From Loxodes magnus (Eukaryota; Ciliophora; Karyorelictea; Loxodida; Loxodidae): a stretch of 64,000 bases of DNA. Below, piece by piece: positions 1-56,037 of the stretch (positions within the stretch are counted from its first letter, which is position 1; each line of letters opens with the position of its first letter). The stretch spans positions 62,001 through 126,000 of the forward strand of contig CAMPDV010000017.1 in NCBI GenBank assembly GCA_946699065.1. The letters run 5' to 3'. The notes beneath the pieces are model-generated. The model was given only the letters and a program-made list of their open reading frames with translations, did not search any database and was not told where the DNA came from. The position numbers and the translations under genes were made by a program.

Positions 1-3000
1 TGCGATCGCTAAAACTCCTGACTCGTTTCCTTTCAAGGTCCTCGTACAACTACCCGTCCAGAAATCTCATACACGAATCGTTCCATCGACTCTTCCAGAT
101 ACGATCCATTTCGTGTCATTGCTTAGTGCGACCGCTCAAACTCCTGACTCGTTTCCTTTCAAGGTCCTCGTACAACTACCCGTCCAGAAATCTCATACAC
201 GAATAGTTCAATCGTCACTTCCAGATACGATCCATTTCGTGTCATTGCTTAGTGCGATCGCTAAAACTACTGACTCGTTTCCTTTCAAGGTCCTCGTACA
301 ACTACCCGTCCAGAAATCTCATACACGAATCGTTCCATCGTCACTTCCAGATACGATCCATTTCGTGTCATTGCTTAGTGCGATCGCTCCAACTACTGAC
401 TCGTTTCCTTTCAAGGTCCTCGTACAACTACCCGTCCAGAAATCTCATACACGAATCGTTCCATCGTCACTTCCAGATACAATCCATTTCGTGTCATTGC
501 TTAGTGCGATCGCTATTTCGACTCGTTTCCTTTCAAAACTACAATCCATTTCGTGTCATTGCTTAGTGCTCGTTTCCTTTCAAAAACTACTCGTTTCCTT
601 TCAAGGTCCTCGTACAACTACCCGTCCAGAAATCTCATACACGAATCGTTCCATCGTCACTTCCAGATACGATCCATTTCGTGTCATTGCTTAGTGCGAT
701 CGCTAAAACTCCTGACTCGTTTCCTTTCAAGGTCCTCGTACAACTACCCGTCCAGAAATCTCATACACGAATCGTTCCATCGTCACTTCCAGATACAATC
801 CATTTCGTGTCATTGCTTAGTGCGATCGCTAAAACTACTGACTCGTTTCCTTTCAAGGTCCTCGTACAACTACCCGTCCAGAAATCTCATACACGAATCG
901 TTCCATCGTCACTTCCAGATACAATCCATTTCGTGTCATTGCTTAGTGCGATCGCTCCAACTACTGACTCGTTTCCTTTCAAGGTCCTCGTACAACTACC
1001 CGTCCAGAAATCTCATACACGAATCGTTCCATCGTCACTTCCAGATACGATCCATTTCGTGTCATTGCTTAGTGCGATCGCTAAAACTACTGACTCGTGT
1101 CCTTTCAAGGTCCTCGTACAACTACCCGTCCAGAAATCTCATACACGAATCGTTCCATCGTCACTTCCAGATACAATCCATTTCGTGTCATTGCTTAGTG
1201 CGATCGCTCCAACTCCTGACTCGTTTCCTTTCAAGGTCCTCGTACAACTACCCGTCCAGAAATCTCATACACGAATAGTTCAATCGACTCTTCCAGATAC
1301 AATCCATTTCGTGTCATTGCTTAGTGCGATCGCTAAAACTACTGACTCGTGTCCTTTCAAGGTCCTCGTACAACTACCCGTCCAGAAATCTCATACACGA
1401 ATCGTTCCATCGAAACTTACAGATACGATCCATTTCGTGTCATTGCTTAGTGCGACCGCTCAAACTACTGACTCGTTTCCTTTCAAGGTCCTCGTACAAC
1501 TACCCGTCCAGAAATCTCATACACGAATCGTTCCATCGTCACTTCCAGATACAATCCATTTCGTGTCATTGCTTAGTGCGATCGCTAAAACTACTGACTC
1601 GTTTCCTTTCAAGGTCCTCGTACAACTACCCGTCCAGAAATCTCATACACGAATCGTTCCATCGTCACTTCCAGATACGATCCATTTCGTGTCATTGCTT
1701 AGTGCGATCGCTCAAACTCCTGACTCGTTTCCTTTCAAGGTCCTCGTACAACTACCCGTCCAGAAATCTCATACACGAATCGTTCCATCGTCACTTCCAG
1801 ATACGATCCATTTCGTGTCATTGCTTAGTGCGATCGCTCCAACTCCTGACTCGTTTCCTTTCAAGGTCCTCGTACAACTACCCGTCCAGAAATCTCATAC
1901 ACGAATAGTTCAATCGTCACTTCCAGATACGATCCATTTCGTGTCATTGCTTAGTCGATCGCTAAAACTACTGACTCGTTTCCTTTCAAGGTCCTCGTAC
2001 AACTACCCGACTCGTTTCCTTTCAAGGTCCTCGTACAAATCTCATACACGAATCGTTCCATCGTCACTTCCAGATACGATCCATTTCGTGTCATTGCTTA
2101 GTGCGATCGCTCCAACTACTGACTCGTTTCCTTTCAAGGTCCTCGTACAACTACCCGTCCAGAAATCTCATACACGAATCGTTCCATCGTCACTTCCAGA
2201 TACAATCCATTTCGTGTCATTGCTTAGTGCGATCGCTCAAACTCCTGACTCGTTTCCTTTCAAGGTCCTCGTACAACTACCCGTCCAGAAATCTCATACA
2301 CGAATCGTTCCATCGTCACTTCCAGATACGATCCATTTCGTGTCATTGCTTAGTGCGATCGCTCAAACTCCTGACTCGTTTCCTTTCAAGGTCCTCGTAC
2401 AACTACCCGTCCAGAAATCTCATACACGAATCGTTCCATCGTCACTTCCAGATACAATCCATTTCGTGTCATTGCTTAGTGCGATCGCTAAAACTACTGA
2501 GTCGTTTCCTTTCAAGGTCCTCGTACAACTACCCGTCCAGAAATCTCATACACGAATCGTTCCATCGTCACTTCCAGATACGATCCATTTCGTGTCATTG
2601 CTTAGTGCGATCGCTAAAACTACTGACTCGTTTCCTTTCAAGGTCCTCGTACAACTACCCGTCCAGAAATCTCATACACGAATCGTTCCATCGTCACTTC
2701 CAGATACGATCCATTTCGTGTCATTGCTTAGTGCGATCGCTCAAACTCCTGACTCGTTTCCTTTCAAGGTCCTCGTACAACTACCCGTCCAGAAATCTCA
2801 TACACGAATCGTTCCATCGTCACTTCCAGATACGATCCATTTCGTGTCATTGCTTAGTGCGATCGCTCCAACTCCTGACTCGTTTCCTTTCAAGGTCCTC
2901 GTACAACTACCCGTCCAGAAATCTCATACACGAATAGTTCAATCGTCACTTCCAGATACGATCCATTTCGTGTCATTGCTTAGTGCGATCGCTAAAACTA

Positions 3001-5255
3001 CTGACTCGTTTCCTTTCAAGGTCCTCGTACAACTACCCGTCCAGAAATCTCATACACGAATCGTTCCATCGTCACTTCCAGATACGATCCATTTCGTGTC
3101 ATTGCTTAGTGCGATCGCTCCAACTACTGACTCGTTTCCTTTCAAGGTCCTCGTACAACTACCCGTCCAGAAATCTCATACACGAATCGTTCCATCGTCA
3201 CTTCCAGATACAATCCATTTCGTGTCATTGCTTAGTGCGATCGCTAAAACTACTGAGTCGTTTCCTTTCAAGGTCCTCGTACAACTACCCGTCCAGAAAT
3301 CTCATACACGAATCGTTCCATCGTCACTTCCAGATACGATCCATTTCGTGTCATTGCTTAGTGCGATCGCTCCAACTCCTGACTCGTTTCCTTTCAAGGT
3401 CCTCGTACAACTACCCGTCCAGAAATCTCATAAACGAATCGTTCCATCGTCACTTCCAGATACAATCCATTTCGTGTCATTGCTTAGTGCGATCGCTAAA
3501 ACTACTGACTCGTTTCCTTTCAAGGTCCTCGTACAACTACCCGTCCAGAAATCTCATACACGAATCGTTCCATCGTCACTTCCAGATACGATCCATTTCG
3601 TGTCATTGCTTAGTGCGATCGCTCAAACTCCTGACTCGTTTCCTTTCAAGGTCCTCGTACAACTACCCGTCCAGAAATCTCATACACGAATCGTTCCATC
3701 GTCACTTCCAGATACGATCCATTTCGTGTCATTGCTTAGTGCGATCGCTCCAACTCCTGACTCGTTTCCTTTCAAGGTCCTCGTACAACTACCCGTCCAG
3801 AAATCTCATACACGAATCGTTCCATCGTCACTTCCAGATACGATCCATTTCGTGTCATTGCTTAGTGCGATCGCTCAAACTCCTGACTCGTTTCCTTTCA
3901 AGGTCCTCGTACAACTACCCGTCCAGAAATCTCATACACGAATCGTTCCATCGTCACTTCCAGATACGATCCATTTCGTGTCATTGCTTAGTGCGATCGC
4001 TCCAACTCCTGACTCGTTTCCTTTCAAGGTCCTCGTACAACTACCCGTCCAGAAATCTCATACACGAATCGTTCCATCGTCACTTCCAGATACGATCCAT
4101 TTCGTGTCATTGCTTAGTGCGATCGCTAAAACTACTGACTCGTTTCCTTTCAAGGTCCTCGTACAACTACCCGTCCAGAAATCTCATACACGAATCGTTC
4201 CATCGTCACTTCCAGATACAATCCATTTCGTGTCATTGCTTAGTGCGATCGCTCCAACTCCTGACTCGTTTCCTTTCAAGGTCCTCGTACAACTACCCGT
4301 CCAGAAATCTCATACACGAATAGTTCAATCGACTCTTCCAGATACAATCCATTTCGTGTCATTGCTTAGTGCGATCGCTAAAACTACTGACTCGTGTCCT
4401 TTCAAGGTCCTCGTACAACTACCCGTCCAGAAATCTCATACACGAATCGTTCCATCGAAACTTACAGATACAATCCATTTCGTGTCATTGCTTAGTGCGA
4501 TCGCTCCAACTACTGACTCGTTTCCTTTCAAGGTCCTCGTACAACTACCCGTCCAGAAATCTCATAAACGAATCGTTCCATCGTCACTTCCAGATACAAT
4601 CCATTTCGTGTCATTGCTTAGTGCGATCGCTAAAACTACTGACTCGTTTCCTTTCAAGGTCCTCGTACAACTACCCGTCCAGAAATCTCATACACGAATC
4701 GTTCCATCGTCACTTCCAGATACGATCCATTTCGTGTCATTGCTTAGTGCGATCGCTCAAACTCCTGACTCGTTTCCTTTCAAGGTCCTCGTACAACTAC
4801 CCGTCCAGAAATCTCATACACGAATCGTTCCATCGTCACTTCCAGATACGATCCATTTCGTGTCATTGCTTAGTGCGATCGCTCAAACTCCTGACTCGTT
4901 TCCTTTCAAGGTCCTCGTACAACTACCCGTCCAGAAATCTCATACACGAATCGTTCCATCGTCACTTCCAGATACGATCCATTTCGTGTCATTGCTTAGT
5001 GCGATCGCTCAAACTCCTGACTCGTTTCCTTTCAAGGTCCTCGTACAACTACCCGTCCAGAAATCTCATACACGAATCGTTCCATCGTCACTTCCAGATA
5101 CGATCCATTTCGTGTCATTGCTTAGTGCGATCGCTCCAACTCCTGACTCGTTTCCTTTCAAGGTCCTCGTACAACTACCCGTCCAGAAATCTCATACACG
5201 AATCGTTCCATCGTCACTTCCAGATACGATCCATTTCGTGTCATTGCTTAGTCCG
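1..5255. repeat. 126-bp tandem array, about 41 units
   Basis: The unit starts near TGCGATCGCT at positions 1, 127, 253 and so on, every 126 bp. It is clearly GC-richer than the rest of the window. Two units are scrambled by internal deletions and duplications (about 510-600 and 1,950-2,050). Because 126 is a multiple of three, all plus-strand frames also stay open for long stretches; those plus-strand ORFs are shadows of the minus-strand WD40 reading. A rare variant combination recurs at about 1,270-1,420 and 4,318-4,465, so blocks of units have been copied within the array. Confidence 0.95.
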
Positions 5256-5359
5256 ATCCCACCCAGACATCCAGTGTAAATTTCTGCGCAAAAAACAACC
5301 TTATATAAAAAAACTTTTATTCCAATCCGAAATTATTTAATCCGATCCAACTCAGTCAT
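1..5359 (-). CDS. Giant WD40-repeat protein, about 41 near-identical repeats (C-terminus beyond window)
   Basis: Read on the minus strand with TGA as Trp, each 126-bp unit encodes exactly one 42-residue WD40 repeat with the core SGSDDGTIRVWDFWTG, preceded by TKWIV and followed by a linker ending GNE. The Trp of the WD dipeptide is TGA. WD40 repeats form beta-propeller scaffolds for protein binding; the partner is unknown. A possible start is the ATG at 5,357-5,359, inside the flanking 87-bp repeats, which opens in phase with the first repeat. Units differ at few residues: Gly/Val, Leu/Gly/Trp, Asn/His, Glu/Asp, Val/Leu and Gly/Trp sites recur in different combinations. Frame is kept across most of the array. 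It is lost and regained near 1,950-2,050, and shifts by one base in a scrambled unit at about 510-600, so the last four repeats are in another frame. Forty-odd repeats far exceeds the usual seven. Fungal NLR-type proteins show similarly homogenised WD40 arrays, but no NTPase domain was recognised here. The WD40 identity is secure; an intact functional gene is not. Confidence 0.75.
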
Positions 5360-6036
5360 CTAGTGTAAATCTCTGAGCAAAAAACAACCTTATATAAAAA
5401 AACTTTTATTCCAATCCGAAATTATTTAGTCCGATCCAACTCAGACATCCAGTGTAAATCTCAGTTAAAACAACCTTATAAAAAAACTTTTATTCCAATC
5501 CGAAATTATTTAGTCCGATCCCACCCTGACATCCAGTGTAAATATCTGAGCAAAAAACAACCTTGTAAAAAAACTTTTATTCCAATCCGAAATTATTTAG
5601 TCCGATCCAACCCTGACATCCAGTGTAAATCTCTTAGCAAAAAACACCATTGTAAAAAAACTTTTATTCCAATCCGAAATTATTTAATCCGATCCAACTC
5701 AGTCATCTAGTGTAAATCTCTTAGCAAAAAACAACCTTGTAAAAAAACTTTTATTCCAATCCGAAATTATTTAGTCCGATCCAACTCAGACATCCAGTGT
5801 AAATCTCTGAGCAAAAAACAACCTTGTAAAAAAACTTTTATTCCAATCCGAAATTATTTAGTCCGATCCAACCCTGACATCCAGTGTAAATCTCAGTTAA
5901 AACAACTTTATAAAAAAACTTTTATTCCAATCCGAAATTATTTAGTCCGATCCCACCCTGACATCCAGTGTAAATCTCAGTTAAAACAACCTTATAAAAA
6001 AACTTTTATTCCAATCCGAAATTATTTAGTCCGATC
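5252..6036. repeat. 84-89 bp tandem array, 9 units
   Basis: Units begin with TCCGATCC at about 5,252, 5,341, 5,430, 5,514, 5,601, 5,688, 5,775, 5,862 and 5,946, ending at 6,036. Lengths are 89, 89, 84, 87, 87, 87, 87, 84 and 84 bp. On the minus strand the 87-bp form would give a 29-residue repeat in the same frame as the adjoining WD40 array, but the two 89-bp units next to it break that frame. The array is therefore more likely 5' flank or leader of the WD40 gene than coding. It contains the possible ATG at 5,357-5,359. Confidence 0.9.
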
Positions 6037-7193
6037 CTAAAAGTGTTCTAGAAAAACATATGTTATAAATAAATTTTTTTTTTTTTTCTACATTATAGCT
6101 ACTAACATTTTTTTTTACCTTTAATTTATCATTTATTTTGATTTGTTCAAAACTACTTTTTATAATTTCAATTTAAGATAATTTAATATTCATTCCTAAT
6201 ATTCGAAAGCTTTTTTAGTTTTCTATTTTAATCCTGTTTTATTTTTAAAATTATATGAATTACTAGAATTGTGATGATATTTTGCGAATTTATTTTATCT
6301 ACGTCTTTTATGAAAAACTTAAAAATTTATATAAATAAATCTAATAGCTTAGTATAAACTTACGACTGATTTCTTAATCGATTAAATATTAAAAAATAAA
6401 ACTTATTATGGTAATATAGTTAATTATTAGATTGTTAGAAGTTATATAATATTACTATATTGTATGTCATTTATTTTTAATTTTAGCTACTAAGTATTAA
6501 GAAAAAATGAAAAAAATGAACAATTGAAAAATTTTGATATAGAACTTTTTTTAATCTTATTTAGAAAGTATTAGGATGATTAACAATTTTGATGCTTTTG
6601 AATGCTTTTGAATGCTTTCATTATGATTAATAAAATTAAATTTTACATTTTGATTATTTTTTTATTATAAATTGTAAATTAAACAATTTTTTACCTAACT
6701 TAAAAATATCAAAAACAAAAATTTATTTTCAAATCAAATTTTTGGTTTTTACATTTATCAGCCTTATAAATTAAAAGATTACTTATATAACATAATAATA
6801 TAAACTTAATAACAATTAAGAGCTAAAAAATCTTATTATTATTATACCCTTTTTATTACTTTTGTCTTTATTTCTGATATATCTTTATTTAATTATTACT
6901 TCTTCTTAAAACTTTTCTTTTTCTAATACACCTTACTTCTATCATTTTTTTCTTAAGCTTTTATTCATAAAATCCTACAACACTTTGATTTAAAGTCACT
7001 CTTGACTCTATTCCATCTCTAAAGTTTAGTAAACTAACTATTTAGTATCTATTTTGATGTTTTTTATTAGTATTATTTGATCAATTTTCTTTTTTATATA
7101 TTCTCTAAGCAAATCTTTCATAGGAGCATTATAAATCTCTTTCTTAGTAACAAGACGTACTGAGCTTGTTGGAAGAAGATTTCAAGAGAGAAT
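6037..7193. other. AT-rich stretch, nothing recognised
   Basis: Homopolymer-rich AT sequence upstream of both the minus-strand WD40 array and the plus-strand open region that starts at 7,194. It would hold both 5' flanks if those genes are real. I see no motif, RNA gene or repeat that I can support. Confidence 0.4.
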
Positions 7194-10100: not shown

Positions 10101-13100
10101 TACTAATTATATGATATATAGAGTATAATCAATTAATTATAAAGCTTTTGCTATTCTTTATTTAGCAAACAATAGCTATTGTCAAATATTTTAAGATTAG
10201 TAAATAAATAACCTTTTAGTTGCTAGTTACTTTGAATAATCGAGTTTATATTTTTCATTTTATTATTATGAAGCATATTATTATGAATTATGGAATTAGA
10301 ATATATTTCTTATTTGATGATTTAATGTACTAGCTAGAATGATAATTTATCTTGTGGTACTTTCAATTTTTTAAAGATTCTATTTTTTAGATTTGATTAA
10401 CTAGCTCTAAAGAACTACTCTAATTTATGATCTGGACAGATGCAAACTCTTTGATCTTTGTCACTTTTCAAGTTAGTAACTATTTCTGAGAAATTAGCTT
10501 TTGAAAAATAAGTATTGCTTATCTCTTTACTACAGCCTAATTTTTAGAAAATTAGATCAAATTCTTTATCAGCAGTTAGATAAATAAAACGGCACAACTC
10601 AAAATTTATAAAACCTTTTGAAAGTATTCCGCTTGATAAAGTTCTTAATCTTTAGATATCTCAATTAAGTCATCATCTTTAGCACATGTTTATTTCTTTT
10701 TCTTTAGCTGGAGTTTTCTCTAAGTTTTTTAACCGTAATTGTGTTTTGTAATTATTCATTGACGATTCAATCTCCCTTTGTTCTTTAAATTTCATTCTTT
10801 AATCATTTATTCAAATTTTTTATCGAATTATAGAACCTTGAAGAACCGAAATACATGTTTAAATGAAGCTTTTAAGTAAATTCTTAAAATCTAAGGTAAT
10901 TTACCTAAGTTCTATTAAATTGAAAGTTCAATAAATATAAGAAAAAATATATAATCATTCAAATCAAGTCCTTGGAAAGAAAATCTTAAGCCTAAACTTG
11001 TAAAGGAGAAACCCACAACTTTCTAAGATATAAAGAAACAATAGAATGCTTTAGTAAACTAATAGAACTTAAACTCTATTCTCATAACTCTTAGTTAAAA
11101 AAAGAGCAACCAACAAATTCTTACTCTTAAAATCTATTTAGTTCTTGGAAAAACAATTATTTGAATCTTAACATAGACATAACTTATACATAGGGAATTT
11201 ATAAGCACAACTATAAAACATTTATTAATAAAATGAAAAAATACAAATGTTTAGTTAGTTAGACATAATGCAGTTCATATAGTCTAAGCTATAAATATTT
11301 CAAGAGTGTTAAATATAAAGCTTTTTAGATGAATTTCAATTAATTCTTTCTTCTCTAAAACGATGAGCAATTCAAATTCAAGAAATTAAGTTAAAACTTC
11401 TGAAATCAAAACTAGAAGAGATAATATTTACCTTTGAGCTAAAATCCAAAGATGAAAAGCGTAAAGTAATAAAGAGAGCTTTTATTATCTTTAGACGGAA
11501 AAGAAAAAAAGGTATTAATTTACCAAAGAGAAAATACTAAGTATAATTAAAAGACTACTTGCAGATAGAATTATATAAGAGTCTTCATCAAATAGGTTAA
11601 TATATTATTTGCTTAGATTTATAGATAAAATTGTATAAATATCTCTTAATTTAGCGTAGAGCTTTAAGTCTAATATAATCTATATCTAATGGCTATTATC
11701 CATAATGCTAAACTTTTATAATTTTATAATTTTAATATTTGCTTAAAATGCTGCTTTCTGAACTTATCTAAACTCTTACTTTAATAATTGTTTAATATAA
11801 AACAAAAAGATAGTAAATTTTAAAAGTTTTAGTTTAAATAATTAAGTATAAAAGTGAAATAAAGAATATAATATCTTATATTAGCTAGACTTTACTCTAT
11901 TATTACATAGCTACTTAATATTTAATTCTTGATTGTACGCTCTATTGTAATAGCTTTTTGAAAGCTTCTATAGATCATTATTAAAATTTATTTATAGCAA
12001 CATCATAAATTTAATACTACTTACTTTTTTCAACTAAATACTTTAGGAGGATATATTATGAGCTTGCTATCATGCTTATTAAAAGGCATATTTTTATAAA
12101 GAAATTCAAAATTATATTGGCAATCTAAATAGTCATTTCAATAGGGAATCTATGCATTAATAATTTTATCTTTTTAGATATATTAACTTCTTTATAGAAT
12201 CTTAATATCTCAAACTTCTGCCTTTTTCATTATAATTTTTAAAGTTTTAAAGATAATTTCCTTTTATTCTAAGGTTAAAGCTTTCCTTTATAATTAGTTT
12301 TGTTTGCTTCATACAGTATTATAAACTTAACGAAGGGAATTATTATTAATTATAAAGAAATCTAATAATAGTAATATAATTACTAGAATCTAAATAGGGA
12401 TAAGTGAATGCTTATTTAATATAAAAGTCAAAGTTAATTAGACTTATTAGGATTATTAAAGCTTGGAAATAAAATAGTGATTATATTAATGATATTAACT
12501 AAAAGAACATTTTAATTGTATTATGTTTCTTTAAGTTTATTTTAAATCTCTAGATTTAACTTTTGATTTCTAAATAAAACTAAGTACTTTTATTTTTGAA
12601 CCATCTATTTGCCCTTTATTTACTTGAAGAATTGTAAATTTACCCTCTACTATCATTTTCATTATACCTTTTTATCCTATTATAATATTATTAAAGGTTT
12701 CAGCAATAGAAATAAATTTTTAAGGATCTTCTTTTTGACAAGGATAAAATTTAAATTTTGGTGTTTCTTAGATTTATTAAAAACTTCTTGAATTTTTTTG
12801 TTGTTGATCTAGCTTATAAGATTTACATTTGTTCCCTATAAATACAGAATATAAAAATGCTTTAGATAGCATTATATTAAATATCTTACTTATTTTTATT
12901 TATACCTGCGCTTAATTATAATTTTTGCCCATATTTTTATTGCTCCTTTCATAAATCACTTTTTCTTTATTTCGTTTTTGTTTTCCAATTAAAGTAAAAA
13001 CTATTTTAAGATTTTTAAACTAATGCTTTCTTTTTTATTTAATTGTCTATAGTATTTTAAATCTTTAATAAGCAAACCTAAAAGAATTTCCTTAAGCTTT

Positions 13101-14919
13101 TAGCATTTGCTAGAATATAAATACGAACTGATAGAAGAAGCATTTTTAAATTAACCCTAACTGCTTAGACTAGCTTTTTTCTGATTATTTTATATCTATG
13201 ATATCCTTTCAAAGTTTATACGTTATCCTCTAAATCGATTTTATTACTCTTTTAGTTTCAATCGTTTTTAGTATTTATGAAAAGGTCTAGTAGTATAAAA
13301 TGGTTATTTGGATAGAGCTAAGTTTTTTTGTTTAGTTTTTAACCTTTTCACTCTGATTTTCTAATTCTTATTTTAATCTATTTATCTTTATAGCTAAACC
13401 ATTAGTTCTAGATTGAGAAAATTTAAGCCAATTTCTCAGTCAGCTTATGAAGAGCTAAGAGTAAATAAGAGATTAAAGTCGTTCTCTGAGTTTTAAATTT
13501 TCTAATTGAGTCTTTTTATTTTTTAATTTAAAGTGAAATAATAAAGCTTCACTAATTACAATTAAAGCTTGTTTAATATACAATTACTATAGCATTATTT
13601 AAACAATACTAATAATTAAAGACTTTTTAAATAAATAGCCTTCTACTATTATTATGCTTTAGTTCTTTATTATGTCTCTTAGATTATCTTAAGTCTCATT
13701 ATTTATGATTCTTAACATCATTTCACTATAAATTTTAAAATGAGAAACTAATTCTTTGTTTCTTATTTTAAATATTATACAGTTATTAGTTACTAAAAGA
13801 GAGATATAGAAACATATGATAATCTTCTAAGCTAATTAAAATATTATAAAATAGAGCTTCCTGTAAGAGTTTAAAGGAATAAATTAACTAATTTAACTAA
13901 ATAGAAGACAACACTGTATCCTCTTTTATCTCTTTCCTACCTATTTATTTTTCTAGTTCTATTCATAGTTTATTTTTTAGACTTTATAAATCTGAGTTTT
14001 GGCTTTCTGAAGCTTCTGGTATTCAAATTTTTATTTCAAGTTATTTTCACAAACTATTGCAATGCTTTCAGATAATTCCCATAAAATTAGCTTGTAACTT
14101 TATTATATTTCCCTCTAATTAATTTGCAGATGCTAAGCAATTTCAATAAAAAGGAATTAACTTGAAACTGGCTATAAATAAACTCCTGTTTCTTATAAGG
14201 GCAAAGGTTATAAAAATAAAGCAATTCTTTGATTTCTTTCCAGATAATCTTTTATATTAAAACTCTCTACATTTAGCTACTAGAGTCTTTTTCTAGAGTG
14301 TGATACTTTACTTTCTATAAAGTTATAAAGAGTTAGGGATTTAACTAGACAGTATTATTCTCTAAAGATAATGATAGCTTAAATATCTCTTTGAATAGTA
14401 TTAAATAATCTAAAGATAATTAGTATTACTACCAAAATTTTTAAACTTTAAGCTCTTTTGTTGCTATTCATATTTTAATAATTAAGCTCAGAGATTAAAT
14501 AAACCGGATAATCCAAGAAAGCCATATAAAAAAATCAAAATTTCCGTTAATTAGAGAAATTTTAGTTATAGTTAATTAATAAAGGAGATAGAAATAAGGT
14601 TATAAGAATAAGAAGATGAGAAGAGTAATACTCAGAAATTAGTCAAAGGCTTTTGTCAGTATGCAAAGCGCTCTTATGTGTCGATAGCCCAAGAAAAATA
14701 AGATTTTTGGGTGTAACCATTGATTTCTCTTAAGAATATAATAAAATGCTTTTGCTGAATACTACTATTTTAAAATTAAAAAGTTCATATTAATGAAGGG
14801 TTCTTAAACTGTATTATTATAAAAAAGAACTATTAGATATCTAGCTTGTATAACCACAGAAGTATTTTATGAAAATCGTTTTATTTATTTTTTTTATTTT
14901 AAATTTATTTAAAAAATGA
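7194..14919 (+). CDS. Possible very large multipass membrane protein (weak call)
   Basis: From ATG 7,194 one frame is open to 8,160. After a putative 19-nt intron (8,161-8,179), the next frame stays open to a TGA at 14,917-14,919, if TAA/TAG are Gln and internal TGA is Trp. The predicted product is rich in Phe, Leu, Ile and Tyr with many hydrophobic stretches, as expected of a multipass membrane protein, but also of T-rich non-coding DNA. Support is an excess of G in the first codon position in the part I counted (8,180-8,600: about 27 first, 17 second, 15 third) and some balanced segments near 8,200-8,600, 10,800-11,600 and 14,550-14,760. No family was recognised. Further short introns or several genes are possible. 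The stretch holds no RNA gene or transposon motif that I can see. Confidence 0.3.
8161..8179 (+). other. Candidate 19-nt intron
   Basis: GTATCTTATTTTTTTTTAG begins with GTA and ends with TAG. Removing it joins the frame used upstream to the frame used downstream exactly in phase (a codon split 1+2). Ciliates of the heterotrich lineage have introns of about 15-16 nt, so the size is plausible. It rests on two frames chosen by eye. Confidence 0.35.
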
Positions 14920-15269: not shown

Positions 15270-17650
15270 TTACTCAACTTATTATTTCCATTTTTGCACA
15301 TACTATTTATTCCTCCTGATACAATCTATTTGTTATCTATATTCAAAGTTATAGATCTTGCTACTTAGTTAGGACATTAAATAGTTAAAATGCATTCATC
15401 ACTTTTAAAATTCCATATCTTAATTGTTCCATTTCATGAACAAGATGCTATTAAGCTTGAATCATTACTAAGTTGAATATTTGATATACTTTTGAATGGC
15501 CTTCGAGAGTTCGAATACATTATCCAGTTTTTAAATTCCATATCTTGATCGTCTTATCAGTACTTCCTAATACGATTCATTTCAGATTACTTGATATCGC
15601 TGCAGAGTATACACAATTAATATATCCCTACAAATTATTCCTTAACTCGCCAGTTGCAAAGTTTCATAACTTTATTGTATAGTCTCAACTTCCCGAAATA
15701 ATTCATTTTTGGTCACTTGAAATCGCTTCAGAGAATAAACTATACATATGCCCCTAAAAAATAATTATTAACTAACCAGTTGCCAAATCCCATAACTTTA
15801 TCGTATTATCATTGCTTCCGAATATTATTCATTTCTGATCCTTTGACATCGCTACAGATAATACAGAATTCTTATGTCCCTACAAAGTTCTCTTTAACTA
15901 ACCAGTTGTGAAGTCTCATATTTTTATCATATTATCAGGGTATGCTGAACCAGAAACAATTTATTACTGATCATTTTATATCGCTGCAGATAATACAGAA
16001 CTCGTATATCCCTGTAAATTTTAGTCTAAACATTAAGAATTACCTTCGCTTTTGTTTTAGTTTATTTTTTTACAAGATTATAAAAGCTCAAGTTAGGTAG
16101 AATTTCATATTTAAAAATAAAAAAGCTGTATTCAGCCTAGTGAATCATTTCTTTATCTTAAAATTTTTCGTAAAAAATGGATTTACTAAATTGCATTTTT
16201 TTATCTTCCATTTTATAATTTTATGGCTTACTTTAATAATTACTGTATTAAAATAACTCTTCTTATATAGTAACTGAGATATGTATTTATAATTATAGCT
16301 ATTTGAGTTGTAAATCAAAAGCTTTTAATAAGAAAAACTTTATTTTTCTAAACTCCTTTTTTAGTGGTCAATAAAATAATACGTTACATTTACTTTGAAA
16401 GCTGCTATTACTAATCATTTGCTTTTTGTTTCCATTTAATCAACATCTTAGTGCTTTAAGCTTTTATTACTTTTAAAAAGTCAAATGAAATTAATTTCTT
16501 CATGATTGGTTTATATAACAAAGCGTAACTATAGAAAGTAAAGAAACAGTAGATTAGTAAAATAGGAGTAATGAATCTTTTAATTTAGAAGCTATTCTTT
16601 AATTATCTAATTTCCTATTATTATTTCCTTTCATTCTGTTTAACTAATTTATTCTTTTAAAATTTACAAATTCATTCCTTATTTATAATCAATGTCTATT
16701 CTAAGTAAATTGAATATCTAAATTTAATATATAAAATAAAGTTGCGGAAAGGAACTAAATAAGCGTTTTTAGCAATGGAGTGTTTATATAGCCACTAATT
16801 TAGTTGATGGTGTTAAAATGTAGACTTTTATTGTTCTTAGTCTAATCTTTACTATGTTTTATTATAATTAACAAGGAATTTTAAATAACTATTTGTATTT
16901 TTATTGCCAAATTGTGAGTTTTTACCTGAATGGAGAAAAAAAATTATAAATATAAAAGTAGGAAAGCAAACAAGAGAAATAATTAGACTATATTACATAA
17001 GCAATGTCATAGCTTAGTTTTTATTGAAGCTAGGAAGCATTTCCAGAGTTCGTTTCTACCTTATATTAATCAATATCAGCACTAGCTTTTCCTGGAGGAA
17101 TTTCAATTTAATCTTACTACTAAGTTACTTTTTATTAAATTAGCAAGATTTCCTATAAAATCGTAGTGGCCTCTTTAAAACATCCATTTAAAAATACATA
17201 AACCTTTAATTACAGTATTTCAAAAAGATTTAGTCAGGGTATTAAGCTTGGCAAGGTTTTGGTTCTAAAGCTTTAGACATAAATTTAGATATTTTTTTGC
17301 ATTTTTTTAAATAGAATTTTAGTCAAAGAACCTCCAAATGCATCAAAAACTTGGTGACTATCCTTACTTTCACAAAATTATCGCAGATAATTTTGGAAAT
17401 TAGTTTTAGAGAAATAAATACAAATTTAGCTTATTTCTGATTTGAAAGCTTTTCCTAAACCGTCAAAGATCTAGCAAATTTCTAGTTCCAGTATTAAATT
17501 GCTTAACAAGACTAATAAAAATAATAGAATGATTATGAAACTGCATTTTTTTAAAGAAAAGCAATAGGTATAAAATGAATCTTAAAGTATAATACTCTTT
17601 TATTCAAAAAAAGGCGGAATTTAAATTAAAGATAACAGTTTAAGCACTAC
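15270..17650 (-). pseudogene. WD40-repeat gene with ordinary diverged repeats, frame-damaged
   Basis: Between about 16,200 and 15,300 the minus strand encodes at least five WD40 repeats, including KWIIFGSNDNTIKLWDLATG and SGSWDYTIKLWNFATG, separated by QGH-type turns. Several of the Trp residues are TGA. Unlike the array at the left edge these repeats have diverged from each other normally. Near 15,470 two extra bases break the frame; dropping them restores VYQIQLSNDSSLIAS and a further repeat ending IKIWNF. Upstream, 16,250-17,650 reads as an open, mostly helical N-terminal region of about 450 residues with no recognised domain. An intron may lie near 16,940, where a pyrimidine-rich stretch ends in CAG. 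The WD40 part is certain; gene limits and the N-terminal part are not. It may be a decayed gene, or the two bases may be an assembly error. Confidence 0.65.
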
Positions 17651-23143: not shown

Positions 23144-26100
23144 ATGGACATGAATGAGTATAATGTGACTATAACTGAGTTTATAATAGAAATAAGAGCA
23201 TGTTTCTAGTTTATTAGAGTAAATAATCTACTGAAAGATATTTATTTAATGTATGATATTTAAGAAAGCACATTTTAATTACTTTCAATCTATCTATTAT
23301 TCATTTTGTAATTGGTATAAGTGTGCTCCTTAGGAGATATTCTATGAAGGAATAATTTTTAACTTTAAAAGTGAGATATTTATTAAACTCTTAGAAAGCA
23401 AGAGTTTAGCAAACATCAAATTGACATGTTAAATGCTTCTACTTACATACTTTCGATGTGGTGAGACTTCTTAATTCCATTTTGACAGTAAAAAGCAATA
23501 TATGAATTTTGATTTTGTAAATGAATTAATTTAAAATAAAAGTAAGAGCACTACTTCATTACATAAATAGCAAGAATGGAAATCTGCTTAAATCAATAAT
23601 TTGGATTTACTAAATGTAAATTAAAGATTATAAAGGAAGCAAATTCATCAACTAGCATTTTTGATATAATCTAAAATCTTAGTTTTATACTATACTTTTA
23701 CATTATCTTTTAACAAGTATTTATTTCTAATACAAGCATTTTTCAAGCATTATATATCATTTATACGAAGCTTTATCTACTTAATACTTTAAAACTGAAT
23801 TATTTTATAAATAAAATAGTCTTGCTAGATTCGCAGAAATAATTAAATAAGTTCTCTAATAAAATTAATAGATCATATAGAATCATACTGATAACAAAAG
23901 ATTTATAATATAATATAAATCTAATTGAAGCATCATAATAATACTATTTATTAGAATCTTGTTTATTAGAGTTATAACTAAGGATATTTAATAAGAAACA
24001 TATTTAAAGAAAATCAGATAAAAATAGTGCTTAATAGAAATAATTAGGGTTTATTATTGGACTACCCATTAAGATTAATTTTGTAGTTTAGCAAAAGTTT
24101 TATGAATTAAACTCTCGAAAATACTATTTAAGAGTGAAATTCCTATTTTTATTATAAACATGTAAAGTTAAGGTGTTAAGCACTATTAGCAATACTGCTT
24201 AGATAAAGAAAAATAAATTTTAGATCAAATTTGCGAATTTTGCTAAAATTAAGAAAAAGTTAACTGAAGAAATTGTTAAATTTTGGAAAAAGAATTCAAA
24301 TAAACTGTCAGCTGTTCAAAAATCAGGGTGATTGGGAATATAGAAAAAGGTGACAAAATTTCGTAATTGGGATAGATTTAGAGATAAAAAGATCTGGTAG
24401 CGATTTAAAAATTGGTTACAGGCTAATGATAATTTACTAAAAATCTAAACAAATGGGATTATGCTTTTCTTAATAATTAAAATCTGAAAGGAGGAGGAAG
24501 TTGCTTGCGTAAAAATAAAAGCAAGAGCAAAAATATCGAAGATTAAAGGCTTAAATCAGGTCAAAAGTATAAGGAATATCTAAAGACCATTTAAGAAGAC
24601 CCCCAATCTAATAATCAATGAAATTTGGAAAAATAAGAAAATATTATATCTCAAAATTAAAATTAATAGAATTTATAAGAGAAATAATTGAGTTAGATTG
24701 AATTTTTTGAATAATGATCTAAGTAAATTTAGGAGCCTCATTAAATTATTGATCAATTAGAAGTTCTTAAAAATTAGCGATTTCTTCTATCTTAAATTTT
24801 TTAGTTTCATTTCTAAGAAAAAGTAATGCAAGAAATAAGATAAAATTTATAAGAATAATTTTCAAAATTCCTTTCCTTTATGATTAGATAAGTCTAAAAT
24901 AGTAGTCAATTGTAGTAAAATAACTAGAGAATTAATAGGGATTAATTAGTAGAATTTTTAAATAAAGATTAAGTTAAGGAGTTATACATTGAAGCTGTAT
25001 AGGATAATTTTCCAGGGAATTATTTGGAAATAAAAGCTATAGAGAATATGTATGAATGTACAATTGCTATTAAAACTAAATGAAATAAATGACTGAATAG
25101 TCTTGGAAAGGACTATAACTAGGAGACTTCCAATTTACTACGTTTGGAAGAAGTAAGTTCAGGCTTTTTTGATGTTTATACATAAAACAATTAACAAAAT
25201 TCTTAACTACTATAATGAAGGTCTATTTTTAAAGTTGTTATGCAAGCTGCTTAATAAAAGGATGCTTTTAAATAATCTGAATTGAGTTTTTTATCCGAAT
25301 CAGATATTAGACATAAAATAGGAAATTACATAAAATAAAAATTGAGTGATGAAATACCATAACAGCTTTACTTTTATTGAACTAAACAAAAAGATTTAAT
25401 TCCTTAAGATATTTAAAAAGAATGATAGAAATTTAGTTAAAAATAAGAGAAATCTATTTCATAATAAGAATAGCAAGTAAATTTAAAAACAGTATCAGAG
25501 TAAGATTTATAAAAGCTTTAAGAATATTTTATTTAAGGTAACTAAATAGCTTAAAAAGCAGCTTAGAATGATGTTGTTTTTATTTTAGGCAATACAGGAG
25601 CAGGAAAAAGCACATTTATAAATTATCTTCATGGATGTACTTTTATCAGCTAGAAATAAAAGAATAAAAATTAAGTTATCATATCTGATCAAGGAATTTA
25701 ACAATTAGTAAAAGTGGGTCATGGAGCTTAATCAGAAACATTTTTCCCTGAAATAGTTACTGATGAAAATTTTACTTACTGTGATTGTCCTGGATTTATG
25801 GATAATAGAGGTGAATTGATTGATATAGCAAATTCTGTAAATTTAGTTTAAACTTTAAAATAGTCTAAAAGTATTAGGATTATTGTGCTTATAAATTTCT
25901 TTAGTCTTTTAGCTGAACGTTTTAAAGGTTTAAGTGATTGTTTAAAGTTAATAGAATATCTATTTAATACAGCATAAAAAGCTAAGGAATATAAATCTTC
26001 AATTCTACTCGGAGTTTCTCAAGTACCATCAAGTAGTTCAAATCTACCACTGTTACCTGAGTTAGAAGCTATTAAAGAAGCAATAAGTCAAAAGGCCTAA

Positions 26101-29100
26101 TAGACAGAAAATGAAATACTAAATGATTTTATAGACTAAATGTTTATTTTCAATATATTTAATGAGGAATTGTAAGGAGGATCAACTAGAGAGGAACTAA
26201 TTAAAAAAATATAAAGTATGGAAGCAATTCAAAATCCATAAAATGTCTTTAGACCTCCTTTAAGTAATGATTCATAACTGTATCTTTCAAAACTTGCTGA
26301 AGAGATTAGAATTCGAATAGATAAGTGAATAAGCAAAAAAAAATACAGCAAATTAAAAAAAGATTTATTCTTACTGGATTAGCTTCATGTAATTGGAATG
26401 TAATAGATTGTAAGTCTTCATGATAGCAAGATTAAGGAAATTAAATAAAAAATAGGAGAAAATATAACTAGCTTCTCTGAATATCTTCAAAGCAAGCAAT
26501 ATTTTAAAGCAAAAAAATGTTTATGCATGTTTGATTAACTTTTCTAAGCATAAATATCTTAATTATAAGATTCTCTTGATCAAAATTATAAAAAAATAGA
26601 AGATAAGATTAATTAAGATCTTTAGTCATAATAAAATATTATCGCAAGATATATTCAATAGGAAAATTTCTAGAACGCTAACTCTTCCTTATAAACACTT
26701 CATCATTTTAATCAAATTTTTTCAGATCTCAAAAAAGACTTAAATGCAATCGTAGAAAAGACAGTCTAAGAATTAAAAAATGAGTTACTAAAAACGATTG
26801 AAAAATGAAAAGTTGAGTAAGAATCTAGTAAAGTAGTAAAAAATTTAATGAATCTACAATAAATAGACAAAATTAGTTTCCTTTCTTATAAAGAGCAAGA
26901 ATTCTAAGCAATATCTTCTATAGTTTAATAGTTTAGAAATAACTAATAAATATTTTAAATAATAAAAATCCTTAAAAATTAAAATTAGCATGCTTTTATA
27001 CAAAACCATTTTCAAATTCCTGTTCCTTTGTTTTGCTGGCAGAAAATAACTATTTCCACATTAGTTACTTAATTCGAAGATATCGTTAATGCTAATTTTT
27101 AAGAAGTAATTGCTTCTTATTAGAATGAATAATTTATCTAAGCAGATGAAAAAATTAAATCTTGCGAAATGTTAAAAGTCTTATATGATGAGGAAAGCTA
27201 CTTAGGATTTAGAATATAGGAGATGCTAATAAGTAAGAATTCTTATATTTAAAAATAAAACGAAAAATGAAGACTTAATTTTTAATAATTTTCAGAACTA
27301 TTGAGATAAAATACTTTCTCATAAGAAGAAAATGCATAAAAAAATAAAATTAAGATGTATCAGCAATACCTTGCGAAGCTTAAAAAGCATCTTTAAGAAT
27401 GGACCAACTAAAAAGAAAAAGATTGACTTGCTAAAAATACTGAATTCTTAAAAATTTTATAAAATGTGCTTGCTAGGATTTAAGATTATGGTGACCAATT
27501 AGCCAAAAAATAAAAATTTGAATATATGTAATAATTCATTTAGACTTTAGATGAATTTTAGTCTAATACCTGGTGTTCGTAAAATACTGATATTTAAAGA
27601 ATAGTTTAGAAGCTCAAAACTGAAATTATATAATAATTTTAAAAGTTCTCTGAGAATATTAATGATCAAGTGCAAAATTGTATCTAATTACTAGAAAGCG
27701 AATAATTTCTAAATGCTTAAACCTCTTTTGAAATCATAATAAATATTCGAAAATCCTAAAATGGATAAATTTAATAGAGTATTGATAATAGCTTATAAAC
27801 TATTTATTAAATGATTACATAAAAACTGACCAATTTTTGCAATAAATTGAATTAAGGATTATAAAACAAGATATATAATGAAGAAAATTGATTTTAATGT
27901 ATACAGTCATATTATAGCTTCAAGGATTTAATCTAGTAATTCAAAAATTATAAACAAAATATTGGAAACTTTGATTAAATTTAGAGATAAGTAAAGGGCT
28001 ATTTTACATAAATATTAAAAGGATTGTAAGAAAAAGCAAGATCCTTTTAGTATGCTTTGTTTGAATTTTAATAAAATTGAAAGAATTCAAAAAGCTTATA
28101 AGAGAAATAATTTAGATAAGCTTCAGATAATCTATAAAAATTATTGTCATTAAATAAAAATTTAGAACAAGTATAAGAACTAGCTTCAGAAAATGCCTAA
28201 ATAAATAACTGAATTAAGGAATATTTAAATGATATTAAGGAAAGAATTCTAAACTTAATAAAATGATTAGAGATAGCATTGGAGAAGAATGATTCATAAA
28301 GAATTATATTCTGCTATTAGTAACTTACCTTTTCATCTAAGAACTTTTCCTAACATGGAGTAATTAATGAAGCTAGCGATTTTACATAATAAATATAATA
28401 TAAAATAGAATCAATTGCAAAAGAAGCAGAAAAGCAAGTGACTAAATATATTGAATAGAAGATTAAGATTTTATTTTTAACTTTGAAGAAAAATTGAATT
28501 CTCTCAAGCTTATAAGTGAATCTAGTTACTTAGATTAGATTATAGATTTCAAAAAAATGGAAAGATAATTTATTAAACATTTTCTAAGCTAGTTTAAAAA
28601 CTATTTGAGTAATCTTTAGTAGTAAGAATTTAAAAGTTAGTCTTAAATATATAAATTGTGCTGCATCAGATTAATAAAAGTAAAAGTTTTGTGATATCTA
28701 ATGTCACATTTATAAGGATTTCCTACTGAATAAGAATAAAATAAAATTAAACAAATCTTAGAGCTCCATTGTAATGCTGCTATTTAAAAAGAAAAGAAAA
28801 CTTAGGAAGCTGATAAGAAAAGCTTATTCTTCTATTAATTAGGAATTCAAATTAAAGAATTATAGTCAAACTTTTAAAGTATTTAACGTTATGCGAATGA
28901 GCTAATTGCTGAATTCCCTTAATTTAAATAAATTTCCAATAAAATATTTTTAGAAAAAGCTGATAGAGTATTTAGTTTCAACGATACACTTAGAGCAATT
29001 CAAAGTTTTAAATAAATTATAAAATATAACATTAACGAAGAAAGTTTGAATCAGGCTTTAGAGGATTATTAATAAGAATATTAAGATAATATTAATACCG

Positions 29101-31106
29101 CTATTAAAAACGATATTGAATCAGATATAGCTATAAAGAGAATAGTAAATAGGGCAAATGAAATAAAGAATTAAATTATAGAATTCTTTCCATTAAACAA
29201 ACTACAGGATTCAAAAAAACAAGTAGCATAGTTATTAGGGTGCATTTTATCATTGTATGCTATAATTAATACTGGTACACAAAAAGTGCCCAACTAAGAT
29301 TATTCCTTTGTTTAACCTTAAGTTATATAAATAATAACTATTTTTAAATTAATTGGATTTGATAGTTAAGATTCAATACAAAATCATTTAATCTAAGTTG
29401 GCACAGGAGAAGGAAAATCTTTAATTTTAGGAGGTTTAGCTGCTTTGCTTTCTTTTCTTGATTATAAAGTCACTGTATCATGTTTCAATTCTTATTTAAG
29501 TGAGAGAGATTAAGAACTTTTTAAACCTATTTTATAAAGTATATAAATTGACTAAAAGGTAAATTATTCAAATTTTAATACATTGTAGGATTAACTCATG
29601 AATCTATAAAACGGAAATTTGAGAGACTTTGCATAATGCCTTATAAAAGATGAAAATATATAAAGTTAAATAAAGGAAGTTGAAAAGGATAAAAATATTT
29701 TATTAATAGATGAAGTAGATGTTTTCTTTGGAAAAAATTTTTATGGATCTACATAAGGTATGTGTACTAATATAAGCGACAAAAATATTTTCAGCTTTAT
29801 AACCTTAATATGAGATAGTTCAAAATATTATAAAAAATAATGCAACTAATTGCTAAATTTATAATAAGCAGAGGAAAAAGTAGTTATAATAGCTACGTAA
29901 TCAAAGTAATATTAAAATATAATAGAAAAATATAAGTTATAATTGATTATGAATTAAATTACTATGTAAATGGTTAATCACGCTTTTAAATTATTAAATG
30001 GCTAGCATTAATATACATTTTGTAGATCTTAAAAGAAAGTAGGTTATGAATCATCAGATGGTAATATAAATTATATAACTATATATGGATATTACACAAC
30101 TTTCGCATACTTTTTGGAGTATGAAAAGTATGCATATGATAAATAAGAATTAGAAAATTAAATAGGAATTTAAATTTCATGTGGTAGAATATCATATGCT
30201 GAAATGCCATAGTTTTTTTCTTACATATTTGGAGTTAGTGGAACATTAGAAACTTTAAGTGAAACTGAAAAAGCAATTATGGCATAGTATAACTTGAAAA
30301 GATAATCTATTGCTCCTTCTATATTTGAGAAAAAGTAAATTTTTCGTTCAAATGAATAATAAAAGGGGAATACAAAAGGGATGATTGTTAATAAAATGAA
30401 TATATTTGATAGTTCTGAGGCATAATTGGAGGAGATTAAAAAATAAGCAATAAAAACAATTTCTCAAAACGGAGCTGTAATTATTGTTTTTGAATCACGC
30501 TAAAGTCTAAAAAATTTCAAAAAGAATGTAGATATAATGAGTGATTTTAAATCAGTATGCCCTTGAATTAATATATTAAATGAAAAAACAGAAAAAGACA
30601 AAAGAAATATTATTATAAAATAAGCGGCCATTCATTAGCAAATAACTTTAATCACACGTGTATTTGGAAGAGGCTCTGATTTTATTTGTCATGATCCAGT
30701 TGTTAAAGATGCAGGTGGAGTTCATATTATATAGACATTTTTCTGCGATAGTGAAACTGAAGAAATTTAAATAAAAGGAAGAACCGGAAGATTAGATGAC
30801 CCAGGAGAATATAGTTAATTTTTGTGATGGAATGATTTGTAAAACATTGGAATCTAAAGTAAACCAGAACAATAATAATATGAATATTTACATATATTTG
30901 ACTTTGATATTGAAAAATATTTGAAAGAAATGAGGAAGTAAACTTGCTAAGATTCTTTATAAGAAAGACTACTAAAAGTTTGAGAAGCAAAGAAACTACA
31001 TGATAAAACATTAGAATTTGGAAAACGTGCAAGAGAAAATTCACATTAGTCAAGATAGAAAGCTATGAAAATTTTAATGGAATTCCAAGATTTCAATTAA
31101 CGTTAA
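23144..31106 (+). CDS. Giant GTPase-SecA fusion protein, copy 1 (one frameshift)
   Basis: About 2,600 codons. Firmly coding from about 24,530 by conservation with copy 2; the ATG at 23,144 and a 17-nt intron at 24,509-24,525 are tentative. Order: helical N-terminus; P-loop GTPase with GNTGAGKST at 25,588 followed by a DCPGF switch (G3) about 70 residues on; a long Gln/Lys-rich coiled middle (26,300-29,200); then a SecA-type motor with GTGEGKSL at 29,400, LIDEVDVFFG, GVSGTLE, FGRGSDF and KGRTGRLDDPGEY. These match SecA motifs I, II, III, V and VI. In bacteria SecA drives protein export; here, fused to a GTPase in a eukaryote, the role is unknown. Conserved Trp residues are TGA at sites shared with copy 2. 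One base is missing at about 28,459 relative to copy 2 and shifts the frame once. Similarity stops at tandem TAA codons (31,098-31,109), suggesting that TAA ends translation there. It may be a recent pseudogene or an assembly error in a live gene. Confidence 0.8.
24509..24525 (+). other. Candidate 17-nt intron in GTPase-SecA copy 1
   Basis: GTAAAAATAAAAGCAAG lies between codons. Its removal joins the frame used from 23,144 to the frame that is conserved downstream. It has GT and AG ends and a size typical of the shortest ciliate introns. The upstream frame is only weakly supported. Confidence 0.35.
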
Positions 31107-31331
31107 ATTTAAATACTTTTCTTTAAAAAATTAAAAAAATCCTTAAAATTAAAATAATTTTTATTTTCCTTAATATAGAAAGCTCAATTCTTTATTAATT
31201 TCTTAAATAATTTTTCTTTAGGTTTTAAATTGATATTATTTTCCTATAACCTAGAAATTTAATTTATTTATTTTAATTATTTGATTTGAAAGTAAAATTC
31301 GTTATAAAGTATGCTTAAGATACTATAATTA

Positions 31332-40609: not shown

Positions 40610-41584
40610 CATAAAAAATATGGTAGAAAGTTTCAAAAAGGGCTTCTATACCACCTCTTTCTAAGCTAAAAAGGAAGAGAGGAAGCAGGAAACCTAAATT
40701 TCTAAACACCACACGTCATCTTCCAAAACCAAACCTTCTTCTTAAACCATATAGGAGCAACTCTAAACAACACCCCCCAGACAACCCTAGAAACACTAAC
40801 ATGCAACAATATAGACTGAGGACCTTCCCAAGAAGCAAAAGATTAGTAACTTTCAGGCCTAGATTAGGACATTCAACCCCTACGTGGACCTCGGAGATCT
40901 CAATAAAGAACAAATCTTAGGAATGACGAAGGAGGAAATGGCTAAGCTTATCTTAGCATTAATAGGAAAAAATAAAGACCTGGAAAAACAGATTGAAGAA
41001 CTAGCTTAAGAACAGCAAGAGCATTTAGAAGATGAGGAAATCCATGCTCCTAGAAACAAAAACTAAGCTGCCATGAATATTCGAATTGACGAATTCGACA
41101 GGCAGTTGGAATAGCTATATGATATGAACGAGAACATGCACATCAAGTTAGAGAAAATTGAAAACAATATTAACCTTAAAATGGAGAATATCAAGAATGA
41201 TATCAAGATCTAGACAGCACACTCCGTTCCAATGGAGTTGGAAGAGGTCTAGAATAAACAAATTGAATTAACTAAAGAAAGATACTTTAAGAAAAAATGC
41301 TTTATCTGTGGAAGAATAAACCATCTCTGAAGGAAATGCAGATAAAGAAAAGAGATACAAAAGAAAATTTGAAACGAACTAACCTAATTCTACCCAACTA
41401 GCAGTGGGAATATTTATAGGAAGAAAAGCAATATTCGGAGCAATCCACTGCGAAGACTTGATAGTGACTGGAGGAACAGACCACCAAGAGTTCAAGTACC
41501 TATCAGTTGGATAGGGAGTAGGAAACTATTAAGAAAACAATCCCTTCTCTGAATAACTTTAATTTAATTTAATACAGGGAGAGG
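40610..41584 (+). mobile_element. ORF1-only retroelement nested in the LINE endonuclease, with target-site duplication
   Basis: ATACAGGGAGAGG occurs at 40,597-40,609 and again at 41,572-41,584, on each side of about 960 bp that interrupts the endonuclease reading frame. The insert is somewhat GC-richer and holds one complete ORF1 and a short ACTTTAATTTAATTTAA end. There is no endonuclease or RT. The layout resembles mammalian HAL1 elements, LINE derivatives that keep ORF1 only. Confidence 0.75.
40622..41551 (+). CDS. ORF1 CCHC zinc-knuckle protein, intact
   Basis: Open from ATG 40,622 to a TGA at 41,549-41,551, about 309 residues, with TAA/TAG as Gln and two internal TGA as Trp. There is a Gln/Lys/Pro-rich N-terminus, a helical, probably coiled-coil centre (about residues 115-210), the landmark VPMELEE, then the zinc knuckle CFICGRINHLWRKC (Cys-X2-Cys-X4-His-X4-Cys) and a basic tail rich in Arg. 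Proteins of this type coat retrotransposon RNA and act as chaperones. This is the only copy in the window whose knuckle and frame are both intact. The final TGA could also be read as Trp, extending into the flanking duplication, but the AT-rich end that follows fits a stop. Confidence 0.7.
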
Positions 41585-55545: not shown

Positions 55546-56037
55546 ATTTAAATATTTTTAATTAAAAAAATAATAAAATTTAATAAATCTTTAGATTTAA
55601 ATTTTTCTTTATATTTTCTTTAAGAAATAAATTAGATTTTTTAATTAAAAGCTAACTTTTCCTGCTATTTTTTTATTAGTATTATTTTCCTTTAAATTTA
55701 AAATTAAATTTTCTAACTTTATTCTTTGATTAAAGAAACACTTTTTCATTTAAATGCTTGCTTAATTATAAATTATAGTCATAAATAAGAAAACAAAATT
55801 AATCAGGAACTTTAAAATCCAAGCAAAACTATACTGTATTTTAGTATCTTATATAAAAATTTTGAAAGCATAAATGCGAAAACTAGACTAACCATATTGC
55901 TACGGAATTCAAATGTAAGTAAAAAAACTTTTAATTGGCTTTTTAATAGAAAAAATCACATTAAATTATAATATAATTGAATAGTAACATAACCTAACAT
56001 AAAAATAGAAATATTTGTTTGAGAAATTACTAAAAAA
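55546..56037. other. AT-rich stretch, nothing recognised
   Basis: Lies between the end of GTPase-SecA copy 2 and the LINE ORF1. No in-frame TGA follows the gene until about 55,978. No feature that I can support. Confidence 0.3.

Follow-up and report, generated by a model that had tools for sequence, protein, structure and literature searches.

The genome of the karyorelictid ciliate Loxodes magnus is represented by a macronuclear assembly of 706 Mbp (705,730,643 bases in total) which, according to the main text of its description, uses genetic code 27 and carries 231 Mbp of tandem repeats (PMC11441545). We have analysed a window of 64,000 nucleotides from this assembly, positions 62,001 to 126,000 of contig CAMPDV010000017.1 (C17), which begins inside a long array of 126-bp units encoding WD40 repeats on the minus strand. 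Tandem Repeats Finder (TRF) and inspection of the sequence upstream of the window placed the array, here termed family A, at C17:35447-67258 (31.8 kb), and the window edge cuts it. It carries 252 anchors and thus about 252 units, of which about 42, corresponding to 42 exact anchors, form the 5' end of the array inside the window (1..5258). The initial annotation had described a single gene of 41 repeats at 1..5359 but the units end at about 5258 (C17:67258) and an 87-bp satellite of nine copies, revealed by a TRF-type repeat call and sequence inspection, lies at 5248..6037 with no strand assigned, abutting the 5' end of the array at the position expected for a gene head. A short motif, TTAGT(G/C)CGATC, is common to the array and the satellite at their junction.

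In the standard code the window array yields open reading frames on the plus strand only, the longest of 1570 amino acids (aa), whereas on the minus strand, with TGA read as tryptophan, each family A unit yields a WD40 repeat, SGSDDGTIRVWDFWTGSCTRTLKGNESVVLAIALSNDTKWIV, and both of these earlier observations held. The tryptophan of the WD motif is encoded by TGA in 248 of 249 family A units and, because of this, the standard code reads a stop in nearly every unit. Tubulin matches in the same genome contain in-frame TAA, TAG and, in many cases, TGA, which are therefore sense codons. In two arrays of a second family, described below (loci L025 and L034), the last repeat at the 3' end reads ...KTIKV followed by TGA and then AT-rich DNA, and in such a context-dependent code the tryptophan codon of the WD motif may double there as the terminal stop.

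The Pfam profile PF00400 matched seven stretches in a 297-aa piece of seven units (E 6.9e-85), with a match in every unit, and 21 stretches in 885 aa. Seven units (window 4292-5182) are confidently predicted to fold as a WD40 propeller, with 28 strands, a pLDDT of 90 and a pTM of 0.88 in an AlphaFold2 model whose alignment consisted of three near-identical rows only. Family A therefore qualifies as WD40 repeats both by a profile match per unit and by the propeller fold. The top matches of a fold search with the model were LIS1, the PkwA propeller (5yzv, third in rank, TM 0.94/0.97) and designed propellers, while the best sequence match among solved structures was 2ymu (E 3.4e-118).

Anchor spacing is exactly 126 bp in 248 of 251 cases, the three irregular spacings being 148, 125 and 190 bp. 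Anchor spacings and frames indicate that the 148- and 125-bp pair (1883..2156, minus strand) loses the frame and then restores it, and that the 190-bp spacing (433..623, minus strand) leaves the WD40 frame, also in translation, shifted by +1 between the approximately 36 units at the 5' end and the remainder. The earlier statement that every unit is perfect thus does not hold throughout, and the array is out of frame with itself. The unit consensus lacks a methionine codon, the 5' end showed neither a kinase nor any other head, and a kinase profile search of the whole window gave no match, so that the window array carries no kinase head. No unbroken frame runs through it from a start codon and, with about 252 units, irregular spacings and a broken frame, the single gene of 41 repeats was rejected.

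A gene of the kind from which such units could have derived lies 14 kb past the 3' end of the array. This probable parent gene (C17 approximately 21474-19750, minus strand), modelled from the sequence, begins with a kinase part at C17:20641-21474 (PF07714, E 3.9e-56) containing GSFGVV, HRD and DFG, which we take to be kinase motifs. The kinase is followed by a 20-bp GT-AG intron and then by six WD40 repeats, four of family A and two diverged, and we infer that the TGA following KWKVAN is the stop codon of the gene. According to the genome paper (PMC11441545), an intron length of about 19 bp is usual for L. magnus. A homologue at the start of contig C1503, truncated by the contig start, has a kinase 58% identical to that on C17, a 20-bp intron at the same place and repeats of the second family. 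Mismatches between the two kinases fall 15/22/55 by codon phase in one 300-bp bin, a strong third-position-type bias, and their synonymous divergence is saturated (pS 0.77, pN 0.25), while no obvious phase bias was seen along the 10-kb spacer of the same two contigs. On C60 and C272, family A units directly adjoin a kinase.

The predicted C17 gene thus has an N-terminal kinase and a C-terminal repetitive WD40 propeller, as do PkwA of Thermomonospora curvata and other repetitive kinase-WD40 proteins, whose propellers are highly symmetric (PMC6805158). PkwA differs in being bacterial and seven-bladed, and in having no satellite arrays reported in the text of that study (PMC6805158), and the likeness is one of architecture rather than of established common descent. 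The initial annotation had envisaged a 5' NTPase or effector domain. NACHT or another NTPase was rejected as the head, since none of eight NACHT loci examined (3.3-3.5 kb each, from a total of 31 NACHT matches, HET not being searched) carried these WD40 repeats, and the effector proved to be a protein kinase in the neighbouring parent gene instead of a head on the array.

The WD40 arrays of the assembly fall into at least three families, A, B and C, which differ in the DNA of their units. Family B, with the unit TGHADSVLSIAISPDQKWIVSASYDDTIKVWDFQTGSCLRTF, forms arrays on C1503, C119, C9, C1832, C620, C6957 and C4046. Its loci are the best WD40 matches and hence a non-random sample, the contigs with families A and B, C17 apart, having been taken from a search in which the best 150 of 98,868 candidates were scored. 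The window array belongs to a set of array families reaching about 92 kb on C1503, where the array occupies everything between about 12 kb and the contig end at 104.6 kb, and spanning about 180 kb on C272. Long, homogenised, tandem, dispersed and present in high copy, the WD40 arrays have the properties of satellite DNA. Among the matches listed, a kinase match is also present on nine of the ten contigs with A or B matches, C17 included, the exception being C6957. Gene and array lie on the same strand, separated by approximately 10.6 to 24 kb on C1503, C1832, C17 and C272 and by no more than about 14 kb on C9. C4046 has a spacer of about 10 kb, with an array that reverses its orientation after a single unit; on C512 a WD40 match lies 0.6 kb from the kinase, and on C119 kinase and array occupy opposite contig ends.

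The extent of such DNA was estimated from 80 random points, drawn via interpolated contig sizes; 60 of them were sampled, and the 58 that yielded sequence were scored. Nine of the 58 fell within WD40 arrays, all of the 123-bp family C (exact 95% interval 7-27%), and families A and B were hit at none, so that about a seventh of the genome as assembled may consist of related WD40 arrays. At least 60% tandem repeat was found at 20 of the 58 points (34%), close to the published 231 of 706 Mbp. A protein search for family C produced 132,443 first-look candidates, of which the best 150 were scored, and these lay on at least 22 contigs.

Variation among the units was examined in pooled clean units, 245 of family A (253 anchors, 249 kept), 682 of family B (740 kept) and 16 of family C (18 kept). 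Diversity per codon is correlated between the families, with r values of 0.68 (A-B), 0.73 (A-C) and 0.82 (B-C) that were reached in 2, 0 and 0 of 20,000 permutations, respectively. Codons 18, 20, 36 and 38 hold 56%, 52% and 40% of the diversity in families A, B and C, where 9.5% would be expected if it were even, and they hold 40-72% in every one of the 12 family B loci. The units are otherwise near-identical, with a mean pairwise site diversity of 0.03 (A) and 0.06 (B), and in this, as in variation at four codons of the top face, they resemble the WD40 repeats of high internal conservation in fungal HNWD receptors.

Frequency classes were compared for families A and B, taking variants at 5% or more as common and those below 1% as rare; together with the permutations, this comparison, and not a codon-model dN/dS, underlies our view of selection. 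Twenty of the 35 common variants, all nonsynonymous, fall in the four codons, as against five of 69 rare ones, where chance predicts 9.5% (Fisher p 5e-8 for common against rare). The remaining common variants of the core comprise eight nonsynonymous and seven synonymous changes. Among the rare variants as a whole there are 53 nonsynonymous and 16 synonymous changes (9:0 in A, 44:16 in B), near the neutral 24% synonymous, and transitions are fewer among the common variants (5/35) than among the rare (27/69; p 0.013). Since the common variants are concentrated and nonsynonymous whereas the rare ones are near neutral, selection appears once to have shaped the common variation while the arrays now look nearly unconstrained, and our best reading is that they drift near-neutrally at present, their repeat surface having been diversified by selection earlier.

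The positions concerned are familiar ones. In HET-D and HET-E of Podospora anserina, codons 7, 9, 25 and 27, around the conserved codons 8 and 26, were described as being under selection (Paoletti et al., PMC1805685), and these correspond, with identical spacing, to codons 18, 20, 36 and 38 around V19 and D37 here. The top-face hotspots R1-2, R1 and D-1, which Wu et al. place at spacings of 2 and 16, fit three of the four, 18, 20 and 36. The analogy with fungal recognition repeats drawn in the initial annotation is thereby strengthened, the variable positions coinciding, and the HNWD proteins HET-D and HET-E likewise carry near-identical 42-residue repeats that exchange with one another. They differ in that their heads are HET and NACHT domains and their repeats number about ten (PMC12222747), where Loxodes has a kinase-headed parent gene and arrays of hundreds of headless units.

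The variants have also been reshuffled within units. There are 60 haplotypes at nine variable sites among 245 family A units, and pairs of variable sites occur mostly in nearly all combinations (12 of 12 for codons 20 and 36; codons 34 and 35, with three of four, are an exception). Adjacent units of array A are barely more alike than random pairs (3.73 against 4.07). Exact tracts of up to 124 bp are shared by the C17 gene and its array, and of up to 125 bp by the C1503 gene and family B arrays. A higher-order period of seven units, that is, of whole propellers, was rejected for array A, which shows no clear peak at lag 7; a dip in mismatches at that lag is present in L026 and L034 and absent in the other loci. 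Irregular spacings make up 4/252 in A and 32/754 in B as against 22/210 in an 80-bp satellite and 4/8 in the 87-bp satellite, where four of eight spacings differ from 87 bp, although this comparison does not control for differences in age. Homogenisation of near-identical units by exchange was thus correctly anticipated by the initial annotation, if not as a process within one gene.

We consider it probable that the window array is a gene-derived coding satellite which arose from kinase-WD40 genes, its repeat surface diversified by past selection and its units no longer visibly constrained. The parent genes would encode a protein kinase and, beyond a 20-bp intron, a small propeller built from near-identical WD40 repeats, and by analogy with the fungal proteins their product may be a recognition receptor. 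Selection in these genes would have diversified four binding-face residues per repeat with the core fixed, while unequal exchange and conversion among repeats reshuffled the variants. Unequal exchange and conversion would then have enlarged the WD40 exon to headless arrays, each with hundreds of units. These arrays would retain the selected variation under no visible constraint and are presumably untranslated; the direction, from gene to satellite, is likewise presumed.

Several observations weigh against this interpretation. An ATG in frame with the array is present inside the 87-bp satellite, none of 396 spacings is irregular in six of the 12 family B loci, and frames intact over such long runs could be explained by recent amplification or by real coding. 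The search for heads on family B arrays covered two arrays with 3-4 kb of flank, and one of these flanks, at L036, is not a true 5' flank, the array there being inverted. For family C, no head was found and the 22 contigs listed do not overlap with the kinase contigs among the matches listed. Moreover, on C528, at approximately 207-237 kb, a family C frame runs through 13,854 codons with no stop, even when read in the standard code, so that either the array is very recent or the giant frame is real.

Silent gene stores are known from antigenic-variation systems and, by analogy, the headless arrays could form an archive donating repeat variants to the adjacent kinase-WD40 genes by conversion. 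On C17, C272, C1503, C1832 and C4046, gene and array share a contig at a distance of about 10-24 kb, which is in accord with this, as are the exact tracts shared by gene and array, the variation at binding-face codons and the recombination within units. However, the shared tracts may stem from common origin rather than conversion, the layouts on C4046 and C119 do not conform, and the rare array variants look unselected, and we regard an archive as unlikely. Slightly less likely still is its genome-scale form, in which receptor genes near contig, perhaps chromosome, ends would draw on huge headless arrays lying inward of them and gain new recognition specificities by conversion, a protist silent gene store residing in satellite DNA.

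A single functional giant gene, with the array translated into one or more proteins of hundreds of WD40 repeats, is an improbable alternative. Units that are in frame with a perfect WD40 core, frames opened by code 27, the ATG in the flanking satellite and the pristine frames of several arrays speak for it; the frameshift inside the window array, the headless 5' end and methionine-free consensus, array sizes of about 92 kb (C1503) and about 180 kb in span (C272), and the lack of a synonymous excess among rare variants speak against it. We attach an equally small probability to misassembly having inflated the lengths and numbers of the arrays. The authors of the assembly suspect that low-complexity repeats were misassembled and give a k-mer size of 261-262 Mbp against 706 Mbp assembled, and match coordinates on C3047 are mirror images; but, according to the same paper, the contigs derive from HiFi/CCS reads and unassembled reads of both nuclei contain similar proportions of low-complexity sequence (PMC11441545). 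The 249 units show 82 haplotypes differing by real variants, and an artefact could make the length wrong but would leave the existence of the array unexplained. That mutational hotspots rather than selection produced the variable codons is very improbable and was rejected, the pattern itself being all that favours it, since rare variants are not enriched there, transitions are fewer among common variants, and three families that differ in their DNA vary at these same positions.

A gene-derived coding satellite, which we prefer, is to be compared with gene-derived satellite DNA generally, which is tandem, homogenised, present in high copy and found abutting other satellites. The Loxodes arrays share all of these properties but keep the frame and WD40 core over hundreds of units, with common variants at the binding surface. 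Npun_R6612 of Nostoc punctiforme, the protein of structure 2ymu, has 14 repeats forming two propellers (PMC5587647) and differs in being a bounded gene with no satellite.

The distribution of kinase matches along contigs is uneven. On contigs estimated to exceed 200 kb (93 of the 139 matches listed), 18 lie in the first 30 kb where 5.3 are expected, and 17 of these 18 are on the minus strand with the 3' end outward, although the matches, taken among those listed, are not independent. A two-ended count (15 matches within 30 kb of an end, all 3' outward) was biased by the choice of contigs and is not relied on. It is possible that the contigs end at breaks in the assembly and not at the ends of chromosomes. 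The 80-bp satellite, a 49-base piece of which has 78,062 exact matches and its reversed control none, occurs at C17:1-17115 (L017, L018), at the starts of C12, C25, C28, C31, C43, C57 and C272, and on C5 and C11. It was found, within two mismatches and in one orientation, at eight of 22 contig starts, a share biased by the choice of contigs for their kinase matches, and is reversed near the contig end on C9. Telomeres of Loxodes were not found, according to the text of the genome paper (PMC11441545), and the 80-bp satellite is a candidate terminal or subterminal repeat.

Mirror-image coordinates on both strands were encountered for family C on C3047 and for tubulin matches on C1348, C3117, C4318 and others, which suggests palindromes or inverted duplications, possibly assembly artefacts. 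On C64, tubulin-like matches are numerous on either strand across about 300 kb (approximately 619-934 kb) and form a large local family of tubulin genes.

In the rest of the window, positions 10625..14874 (no strand assigned) are 73-84% homologous, by blastn, to the spacer that separates the kinase-WD40 gene from the array on C17 and C1503, and are probably noncoding, no three-base pattern being seen in the mismatches. Beyond this spacer, a diverged, non-homogenised WD40 block at 15323..16017 (minus strand; PF00400 E 2e-33 in one frame) is probably an older WD40 gene or array remnant, with no kinase upstream as judged from the kinase profile search across the window. A 6.6-kb stretch is duplicated at 83% identity (24706-31286 and 49152-55731), and an Exo_endo_phos_2 match at 41564-41806 (plus strand), barely above its cut-off, is probably a LINE remnant. 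A KorB match, below its cut-off, was discarded.

Bacteria and fungi are already known to possess highly repetitive WD40 proteins in which hotspot sites vary (PMC5587647). The literature searched contained no report linking Loxodes, WD40 and tandem repeats, or satellite DNA with WD40 tandem arrays, and the main text of the L. magnus paper does not use the words WD40, satellite or kinase (PMC11441545). Where stop codons have been reassigned, a genome annotation that applies the standard code masks such arrays as repeats. If the proposed origin is correct, a large share of the satellite DNA of this genome would be recognisable as a protein-coding module, and its common variants would preserve the trace of selection on a binding surface. 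The codons concerned would be the four known from fungal self/non-self receptors, with a kinase here as the preceding domain. Satellite expansion would then be linked to recognition genes, and a role of coding satellites as stores of variants would become testable.

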